Source of the DNA: a virus
IMG/VR virus record: IMGVR_UViG_3300042691_033294
Coordinates: 1-56,799 of that record
DNA: 56,799 bases
Direction: 5' to 3' (one strand)
In this document: positions 24,682-38,594 of the stretch, piece by piece
Numbering within the stretch: the stretch's first letter is position 1
Layout of the letters: each line of letters begins with the position of its first letter
The notes under the pieces: model-generated
Databases searched by the model: none
What the model was told of the DNA's origin: nothing
Seen by the model: the letters and a program-made list of their open reading frames with translations, nothing else
Position numbers and translations under genes: made by a program

Positions 24682-25611
24682 TTAAAATACCTCATCTATA
24701 GACCAAGATATTTTTCTTGGTGGAAAGCCCGAAACATTACTCAAGGCCCACGCCTCGCCACTGGCTATCATACCCGCAGCATCTTGTTCTCTAACCCAAA
24801 AAGATCCATCTGGTTGTTCATAAAATTTTGGGCCGCTATTCCATACGCCCCAACTGTTTTGAATTAAAAATAAGGTTTCATTTAGCCTTTCTTTTGTATC
24901 GTCAACTCCAATCCACGACATAGCGTGCGCCCATTGTCCCTCTCTTCTCGCTACGCCATTTTTATCTCTAGTAGAAGAAAAGCCATACATACTGCAAACA
25001 GCCAAACAATATCCGTTGGCGATAGCATCTTTTGCTTCTTGTACACTCTTGATAAGAGACACTGTTTTGACTTGATTTTGTTTAGCCGCTTCTGCCAATT
25101 CTCTAGGAGTTCCAGTTCTTCCCCACGAATTAGCTAGCTTAGCATTATATTTTGATAGATCGTAATTATCATATTTTTTTCTTAATAGAATTCCACCGTC
25201 CTGATTCAAGAATCGTGCGGCTCGGCTGCAAGTCATTCCTTCGCCGGTATGCCCCCTGACTCCATATATGGCCTCTGTAGCTCCGCTAGCTATGAATCCT
25301 TCGCGTTCTTTCTTGATATCTATCTCAACGGCCCTAGTTGTATCTGAACCATTTCTAAAAGCATGTGATACGCAGTCGCCCGTCTCTTGTCTTTCGTATG
25401 CTCCAAAATTAGGCACAAATTTTAATATTGATTTGTATGGCAATGAAAGCTTTCCGTCGCCCGACCCAAACAATGGCTGAGCAGCACTACCGAATAGTGG
25501 CATAGGCAACTCTGATAAAAGTTTCTCTGTAGCCGCTGGATCTGAAATAGAGCCAACCAAACCATTAGAGTATGCATCTAAAAGACTTTTGGGGGTTTTA
25601 AAAGTAGCCAT
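24682..25611 (-). CDS. Papain-like cysteine protease
   Basis: 309 aa. The catalytic triad of C1-like peptidases is visible: Cys80 in ETGDCVSHAFRNG, His229 in GQWAHAMSWIGV and Asn252 in QNSWG. No prodomain beyond about 75 residues. It lies among virion-type genes and could process virion proteins or the host envelope; the substrate is unknown. Confidence 0.8.
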   Translation of the reverse strand: MATFKTPKSLLDAYSNGLVGSISDPAATEKLLSELPMPLFGSAAQPLFGSGDGKLSLPYKSILKFVPNFGAYERQETGDCVSHAFRNGSDTTRAVEIDIKKEREGFIASGATEAIYGVRGHTGEGMTCSRAARFLNQDGGILLRKKYDNYDLSKYNAKLANSWGRTGTPRELAEAAKQNQVKTVSLIKSVQEAKDAIANGYCLAVCSMYGFSSTRDKNGVARREGQWAHAMSWIGVDDTKERLNETLFLIQNSWGVWNSGPKFYEQPDGSFWVREQDAAGMIASGEAWALSNVSGFPPRKISWSIDEVF

Positions 25612-35287: not shown

Positions 35288-36868
35288 TTATCTAGTAAAT
35301 CCAGAGATAATCGAAGTAATATCTGGAGAAAATCCAGAAATATCTAATTGTAGTGGGTCTTTTGGATCGGCTACAGAATATGGAACCGATTGTAGTCCAC
35401 AGACAATCATCGAACTTTGTCGCGACATCTTTTGTCTAAATTCTTTTAGGGCCACAGTTGGGTGCGACCCAGTATTAACTTCGCAGTCTGTTATAATAAC
35501 AAAACAATCTGCTGGAATTTTGTTGTCTGTTGCATACTTGATAGCAGCAGCAGCACTCGTAGCTCCGAAATTACGCATTAAACATTTGCTAGATGCCGAG
35601 TTTAATGTGTCTCGCTTGCTAATTTTTAGGTCAACAAAACCACTAGCAAATCCACCAACAAAAGTGTTTGCTTCTGATCTTAGGTGTGCCATTGCTAACA
35701 CAGCCGCAATCTCACAGTATTTTAGTCCAGTTGAAGGCTCTAGCCAACCCATAGAACCAGATACGTCGATTCCGTACAGGTAGTTTTTACCAGTTGGCTC
35801 GATAGCATCAAATGATAAGTAGAAAGCTGTTTCAAGAGCATCTACAATCGAATTGTTTACTTGCCAAGTTCCAGATCCTAGCTTGCTATGACCACTTTCG
35901 TATGTCTTTTTCGCTACTAGAATTGTTAATGGGTGAAGCTTATTTGATTTTAGGAATTCTTTGTCTGTAAGTTTTTCAACTACAAATTTAGAAGCATCAC
36001 TAAAAACGCCTAGCAATCCGCTTTTGGACATATTTCCAAGGTTTCTTAAAAGCGCAGTTCCTCCAAGGTTTGGCAACATAACTTCTTGAACTTCTTTTGT
36101 GTTCAAAAATTTAGTTGGCACATGCTCTCTTTGAAGACCATAAGTAGAAATCATTTCCAGAACTTCTTTTAGAGATTCTGTTTTATGAACTCTAACAAAT
36201 GCATCAATCAAAGCTTCGCCATTGTTGGCCGTATTGAACGCTACATTTTTTCCTGCAACCCAATTGGAAATCCTGTTCTTTGCTTCGCTGTTTGCGAAAC
36301 TTGGGTGAGCAAGTCTAAACACATCTAGGTGCGACCAGCCTTCGCGATTTTGGTATTTTGTTACTTGATTAGCAAAACTAATATCGCTTCTTCCGATGTA
36401 CCAATTGTTAATTGCTGCTCTTACAGACTTACCAAATCCTCTCATAGATTTGATAAAGCTAGCAAACATAAACAAGTGTGTACCGGTTCTAACTACACTA
36501 TTGAAAGCTTTTACGGCTTGTTGCTTAGCGTCGTTTGATCCATGAGCGAATACCAATGCAAGAGCAAAAATAGCATGATCGTTCTTATGAGATAGGTTAT
36601 TTGTAGAAATTCTAACAATTTCCGAAACAACCCTAGTCCCATCTTGCTTGATGCAGCTAATAACGTTTTCGAAGTTATTGTATTGGTGATTATTTTTGGA
36701 AATATAGTAGGTTCCAGAGGTTGCCCCCATGATTAAAAATCTTTCTAGGAATTTAAAATCATCTAGCTTGAATCCGTATCCACCACCAGAGTTTGCTACC
36801 ATTTCAGAAGATCTGCCAACGATTTTTTGTCTAACAGATCCATTTGTCAAAGAATACTTGAAATTCAT
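35288..36868 (-). CDS. Ro60 / TROVE RNA-binding protein
   Basis: 526 aa. The N-terminal two thirds fit the HEAT-like TROVE ring (for example RTGTHLFMFASFIKSMRGFG near 128-147 and WYIGRS near 156). The C-terminal third is a von Willebrand A domain with MIDAS motif DVSGSM (368-373). Ro60 binds misfolded RNAs in its cavity and Y RNAs on its outside, and in bacteria can link to RNA degradation. Two Y-like RNA candidates and tRNA-like RNAs lie immediately upstream in the same transcription unit. Complete, with a normal length. Confidence 0.93.
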   Translation of the reverse strand: MNFKYSLTNGSVRQKIVGRSSEMVANSGGGYGFKLDDFKFLERFLIMGATSGTYYISKNNHQYNNFENVISCIKQDGTRVVSEIVRISTNNLSHKNDHAIFALALVFAHGSNDAKQQAVKAFNSVVRTGTHLFMFASFIKSMRGFGKSVRAAINNWYIGRSDISFANQVTKYQNREGWSHLDVFRLAHPSFANSEAKNRISNWVAGKNVAFNTANNGEALIDAFVRVHKTESLKEVLEMISTYGLQREHVPTKFLNTKEVQEVMLPNLGGTALLRNLGNMSKSGLLGVFSDASKFVVEKLTDKEFLKSNKLHPLTILVAKKTYESGHSKLGSGTWQVNNSIVDALETAFYLSFDAIEPTGKNYLYGIDVSGSMGWLEPSTGLKYCEIAAVLAMAHLRSEANTFVGGFASGFVDLKISKRDTLNSASSKCLMRNFGATSAAAAIKYATDNKIPADCFVIITDCEVNTGSHPTVALKEFRQKMSRQSSMIVCGLQSVPYSVADPKDPLQLDISGFSPDITSIISGFTR

Positions 36869-38240: not shown

Positions 38241-38285
38241 GTCGCTGATTTGAGTGGTAAGGCATCAACAAGCCCCACTCGCAGA

Positions 38286-38312
38286 CTAGGCCGCGAGAAC
38301 GCAGTTTCCTAC
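38286..38312 (-). other. tmRNA tag reading frame VGNCVLAA
   Basis: GTA GGA AAC TGC GTT CTC GCG GCC TAG follows the first pseudoknot and an AAATGAC stretch, the usual spot of the resume codon. The tag ends in LAA like host tags recognised by ClpXP. The exact resume codon is inferred. Confidence 0.75.
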
Positions 38313-38409
38313 GTCATTTAAAAAATTAATCGAGTATTTAAGTGGCCTCTCGATCAACCACTACATGCAGTTATTGATTCAAATTTCGGATCGAATCCAA
38401 TTCACCCCC

Positions 38410-38516
38410 TAATCGCCGTTTTTTATAATGAGAAAACGGTTCGGAATAAAAACTCATACAATTATCGCTTAGTATAAACGATAAAAGACTTCCTACCACT
38501 CATGGTGGCGGAATAG
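38410..38516 (-). other. Intervening spacer of the permuted tmRNA
   Basis: 107 nt between the acceptor 3' end and the coding 5' end, expected to be cut out during maturation. Contains a TTTATCGTTTA stretch also found near the left edge of the window. Confidence 0.6.
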
Positions 38517-38594
38517 TGGAGGTGGGCGGTATCGAGCCGCCGTGTCCGACAATATCATCAATAACGTCTACATGTTTACTCGCTTGCGCGAGAG

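Follow-up and report, generated by a model that had tools for sequence, protein, structure and literature searches.

A circularly permuted phage tmRNA gene with a core resembling that of one-piece phage tmRNAs

The window analyzed here, a linear virus record of 56.8 kb taken at its full length, holds a circularly permuted tmRNA gene (ssrA) on its minus strand (38575-38244), a call that is confirmed far beyond chance. Very probably this phage-encoded gene gives rise to a two-piece tmRNA that serves trans-translation during infection, and has a core of the one-piece phage type. The window also encodes RecA, PhoH, a class II ribonucleotide reductase, thymidylate synthase, UvdE and a Ro60/TROVE protein, as well as 25 tRNA genes detected by ARAGORN, and the tmRNA locus lies within a tRNA-rich segment. 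Permuted tmRNA has been described from three main bacterial clades.

The Rfam family of permuted tmRNAs (tmRNA_permuted, RF04321) matches positions 38575-38286 of the minus strand at 66.6 bits, above the curated cut-off of 47. The match is full-length (model positions 1-213), with an E-value of 1.1e-10 for the window against all 4227 Rfam families and of 2.3e-12 on 1.2 kb. The acceptor half stands ahead of the coding half, in agreement with the original prediction of a permuted tmRNA with swapped halves, and an unconstrained fold of 370 nt of the precursor recovered the acceptor stem, T arm and P2 in a single structure. Of the computational checks that had been proposed for this prediction, the Rfam model matches and ARAGORN is silent, making no tmRNA call at 38575-38244 in the window; common software of this kind overlooks such permuted genes.

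The gene, all parts of which lie on the minus strand, runs from acceptor piece through spacer to coding piece; its outer ends are approximate, and the part downstream of the RF04321 match is placed by the pairing of PK2. The acceptor piece (38574-38517), supported by the RF04321 match and the fold, carries the 3' strands of P2 (38574-38569 and 38565-38557), a T arm (GGCGG-CTCGATA-CCGCC, 38541-38525) and the acceptor 3' strand CACCTCC (38524-38518), followed by the discriminator A38517. Next comes an intervening sequence (38516-38410) of exactly the predicted 107 nt, which starts with CTA, encodes no CCA, contains a hairpin (38439-38416) and is expected to be removed. The coding piece opens at the expected RNase P site, 38409, with the acceptor 5' strand GGGGGTG (38409-38403). 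The 7-bp acceptor helix anticipated between this strand and CACCTCC is complete (GGGGGUG/CACCUCC in the RNA), and its third pair is G3-U70; a G-U at this place is the tmRNA-specific alanine identity pair and is required (PMC3985003). The tmRNA D-loop motif GGATTCGATC (38398-38389) follows, with the GGATTCGA noticed beforehand at 38398-38391. The 5' strand of P2 (38378-38364) consists of ATCAATAAC (38378-38370), which pairs with GTTATTGAT (38565-38557) in the 9-bp helix that had been described, and TGCATG (38369-38364), which pairs with CATGTA (38574-38569), so that P2 has 9 + 6 pairs; the strands of the 9-bp helix are separated by 178 nt rather than the 180 first given.

A first pseudoknot and a tag frame, both part of the original prediction, are likewise present. 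PK1 (38362-38329), ahead of the tag, is composed of a 5-bp stem S1 (AGTGG/CCACT), a TTG loop and a 6-bp stem S2 (ATCGAG/CTCGAT). Ten of its 11 pairs covary among nine phage tmRNAs of common geometry, namely that of the window, the permuted tmRNAs of contigs L238 and L260 and six standard ones, with 26 double-change cells against 6.3 in shuffles and 98% of cells paired, which indicates that PK1 is under selection. The tag frame (38315-38286) reads GAC GTA GGA AAC TGC GTT CTC GCG GCC TAG and specifies DVGNCVLAA-stop; it thus ends in LAA, and its resume codon is by alignment an atypical GAC instead of GCN. The tag of L238, DVENYALAA, lies in the same frame in a region close to that of the window. 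A hairpin, P5 (CTCGC/GCGAG, 38297-38278), surrounds the stop codon of the tag. A second pseudoknot, PK2 (38280-38244; GTGGGGC/GCCTTAC with GTTGAT/ATCAGC), is probable from the pairing as read by eye and the minimum free energy of its first stem. Similar pairings were found by inspection in L238, L260 and two contigs with standard tmRNA genes, L301 and L005, and the coding piece of two-piece tmRNAs typically has two pseudoknots (PMC3985003), as in the PK1-tag-PK2 layout seen here, which has no others.

The encoded 3' end of the tmRNA, ACT(A), carries the signature of the tRNA genes of the window (31451-53082), 19 of 25 of which have C-T directly past the discriminator base (N73-C-T) and not CCA. 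The same signature is found in 5 of 6 and 8 of 9 tRNA genes in two sets from relatives; on other contigs with permuted tmRNA, CCA is encoded in 126 of 140 tRNA genes. Since its 3' end matches the tRNA signature of the phage, the tmRNA gene looks adapted to the genome of the window. The C-T signature may also mark the tRNA 3' processing of the host.

From the known family we infer that the mature RNA of the window is in two pieces. As in that family, host RNase P would cleave the minus-strand precursor ahead of G38409 and a tRNase cut would trim it after A38517, CCA would be added and the 107-nt spacer lost, and pairing in the acceptor stem and P2 would hold the two pieces together. This RNA would be recognized by host AlaRS at G3-U70 and charged with alanine, and SmpB and EF-Tu of the host would deliver it to stalled ribosomes; no SmpB gene was found in the window or in nine related records, all of them fragments, so that host SmpB would be used. 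The DVGNCVLAA tag would be appended and the tagged protein degraded via its LAA end. Presumably the phage would gain from the release of ribosomes that have stalled in the infected cell on broken mRNAs, a guess also made in PMC9004378 and PMC12656738. Reduced function is possible, given C at T-loop position 54, where U is the usual base, GAC in place of GCN and the unencoded CCA. The gene is dispensable, because a close relative, L006, whose TROVE protein is 88% identical to that of the window, is collinear with the window up to the tRNA-like element beside the tmRNA and then differs, with no tmRNA at this site or elsewhere on its 40-kb contig.

Among the permuted phage tmRNAs that we compared, the window gene is the most divergent. 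Its RF04321 score is the lowest among the full-length phage genes scored (66.6 versus 76-151 bits). Against the beta model (RF01850) it reaches 44.0 bits, below the curated cut-off of 84, compared with 85-152 bits for other phage genes, most of those sampled exceeding the cut-off; against the alpha model (RF01849) it reaches 32.5 bits (curated cut-off 50), over positions 40-193 only. Beta is the best model of the clan at this locus, the cyanobacterial model (RF01851) having been compared as part of that clan. With the RF04321 family, of which these three are sub-models, the window shares an acceptor piece placed first, a spacer, G3-U70 and the layout PK1-tag-PK2, with PK2 probable in the window; it differs in falling below the beta and alpha cut-offs and in its apparently one-piece-type core, its GAC resume codon, CTA for CCA and T-loop C54. 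Methylophilales phage Melnitz and other aquatic phages also encode permuted tmRNA (PMC9004378). The Melnitz two-piece tmRNA groups with that of alphaproteobacterial SAR11 and is under a glutamine riboswitch (PMC9004378); unlike Melnitz, which we compare by its published description, the window has no Rfam riboswitch match at the locus.

The core of the gene was compared by means of a P2/PK1 profile, with acceptor, D and T parts omitted, over 31 standard and 94 permuted phage tmRNAs, every sequence being scored without itself and its near relatives. On this scale, where positive values denote the standard form, the window scores +45.6 bits (+41.9 without L005 and L301), the standard tmRNAs have a median of +25.1, and the 94 other permuted ones have a median of -26.0 and a maximum of +17.6. 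The permuted L238 (+38.7 bits) and L260 (+33.4) also score towards the standard form. Both P2 strands of the window fit the standard profile better than the permuted one (coding strand 31.4 versus 3.1 bits; acceptor strand 26.8 versus 9.4). To judge from these scores, the P2/PK1 core of the window is of the one-piece type, which is unusual among permuted phage tmRNAs.

Comparisons of coding halves give the same neighbours. The nearest to the window alone are L238, then L301, L260, L350, L005, L279 and L340, and all of these except L238 and L260 are standard one-piece genes; a joint search with the coding halves of the window, L238 and L260 retrieved, after themselves, the standard L301 and L005. 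The standard tmRNAs (RF00023) of L301 and L005 resemble that of the window in the PK1 loop UUG with stems of 5 + 6 bp, in a P2 with (G)CAU/AUGUAGA and in a tag ending in LAA, but they are unpermuted one-piece genes of 340-350 nt. These phages share genes with the window: the order is TROVE-UvdE-ORF30490-standard tmRNA in L005 and UvdE-ORF30490-standard tmRNA in L301, so that UvdE and ORF 30490 are common to all three, TROVE also to L005, and the order is conserved. The contigs of L238 and L260 have a glycosyltransferase, the protein at 24685 and other genes in common with the window. That the nearest coding halves, L238 and L260 aside, are those of one-piece genes, above all in gene-sharing phages, suggests that within phages either the permutation arose separately or the core was swapped.

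The first of these origins, in which a one-piece phage tmRNA was circularly permuted independently within a phage lineage, apart from the alpha, beta and cyanobacterial ones, is a possibility that we rate somewhat below an even chance; the window and L238 would then, tentatively, form a further phage-born lineage of permuted tmRNA. It accords with the P2/PK1 profile, in which the window, L238 and L260 side with the standard form, well beyond the maximum of the other permuted genes, and with its negative scores for all other permuted genes that have the 6-nt T loop of L238 and L260. The one-piece character of the two P2 strands, which lie at opposite ends of the gene, and of the nearest coding halves other than L238 and L260, the standard tmRNA that follows UvdE-ORF30490 in the related L005 and L301, and the lack of the beta spacer motif in the window and L238 point the same way. 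Trees from a short alignment also group the window with L301, L005, L340 and L327 (93/64 to 91/87), but in AU tests a common clade with other permuted genes stays acceptable (p 0.17-0.36; 0.174 for a single clade of all permuted genes, 0.332 for joining the main permuted clade). The T arm of the window is moreover nearest to that of the permuted L063, and L260 has a beta-like spacer and scores 97.5 bits against beta_tmRNA.

The other origin, which we hold to be plausible if short of probable, is a beta-like permuted branch that either kept an ancestral core or took over the P2/PK1/tag half of a one-piece phage tmRNA by recombination. L260 couples a spacer of the beta type (ACCAGAAG..TTTCTGAT) and a beta-like T arm with a one-piece-like core, among the clade models beta_tmRNA fits the window best (44 bits), and permuted genes are frequent enough in phage contigs for recombination partners to be at hand. 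Against it, one-piece-like P2 strands at both ends of the gene need two exchanges or a coordinated one, and the spacers of the window and L238 hold no beta motif. If genes with the same core coexist in phages in one-piece and in permuted form, the route of conversion could be studied in relatives, and phages would be candidates for making or spreading the tmRNA rearrangement.

We consider it improbable that the gene is a decaying relic without function. An RF04321 score below those of the other full-length phage genes scored, T-loop C54, the unusual resume codon and the missing gene at the L006 site would be in keeping with decay, but all helices are intact despite the strong divergence, PK1 covaries, the tag frame is open and ends in LAA, and the 3' end follows the tRNA signature of the phage. 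A misassembly that exchanged the two halves of an ordinary one-piece gene, to which the occurrence of the exact gene on a single contig might point, is very improbable: the 107-nt spacer shows no evident PK3 or PK4 sequence of the kind that standard genes have, and the genes of L238 and L260, which come from other samples, are arranged identically around spacers of their own, 37 and 30 nt long.

The original prediction had regarded a phage as a surprising bearer of a permuted tmRNA, and this surprise is not upheld: phage carriage of two-piece tmRNA is already known, from Melnitz and from 53 two-piece structures among phage genomes (PMC9004378). Viral contigs widely carry permuted tmRNA. When IMG/VR was scanned with two patterns for this order of the halves, at least 119 and 98 stretches matched, and at least 169 of these have a proper acceptor and T arm. 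In a sample of 80 IMG/VR loci, ARAGORN found at least 28 permuted and at least 21 standard tmRNAs among the matches listed, so that among these the permuted form is about as common as the standard one in IMG/VR contigs; the loci were picked solely by a 5'-end/D-loop motif, on which the counts depend. The exact window gene is known from one contig only. A search of annotated phage DNA with the window locus returned short tRNA and chance matches only, a genome-collection scan for the window's spacing gave three chance matches, none with tmRNA, and plasmid and phage searches with the alpha-like L132 gave no matches. A narrow pattern for one-piece-like permuted genes with spacers of 80-110 nt retrieved ordinary permuted genes only, and the CATGTA motif is not diagnostic by itself, being present in some other permuted genes as well.

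The permuted tmRNAs of L260 (3350-3561) and L238 (6392-6171), with their 6-nt T loop, are also missed by ARAGORN. Some 20 further permuted phage genes have a T arm of this kind. As a link to other permuted genes, the 6-nt T loop was set aside because these score towards the permuted form.

Other RNA elements were seen nearby and in relatives. L002 (157-224, minus strand), L003 (978-1045, plus strand) and L004 (7510-7577, minus strand) have 68-nt tmRNA-like genes without a tag region, which adjoin phage tRNA genes and comprise a tmRNA acceptor stem, D motif, short hairpin, T arm and encoded CCA (RF00023, 56 bits). CDS-less tmRNA forms are very rare, with nine standard ones listed, and that of phage DS6A inhibits tmRNA in E. 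coli (PMC11915505). Directly past the window tmRNA lies a degenerate tRNA-like element with an odd anticodon arm (38245-38175, minus strand; 29.2 bits to RF00005), conserved in L006 (538-607), and just upstream of the tmRNA is a probable diverged tRNA (38675-38593, minus strand), with a T arm GTTGG..CCAAC, an A-C-T end and no ARAGORN call. Finally, a 122-nt RNA at 37092-36971 (minus strand), conserved in L006 (1724-1846), resembles a tRNA in its acceptor, D arm and T arm, but has some 65 nt of different sequence where the anticodon arm would stand. The Ro60/TROVE gene (35288-36868) lies about 100 nt downstream of it, which makes this RNA a candidate Y RNA that would partner the Ro60 protein of the phage.
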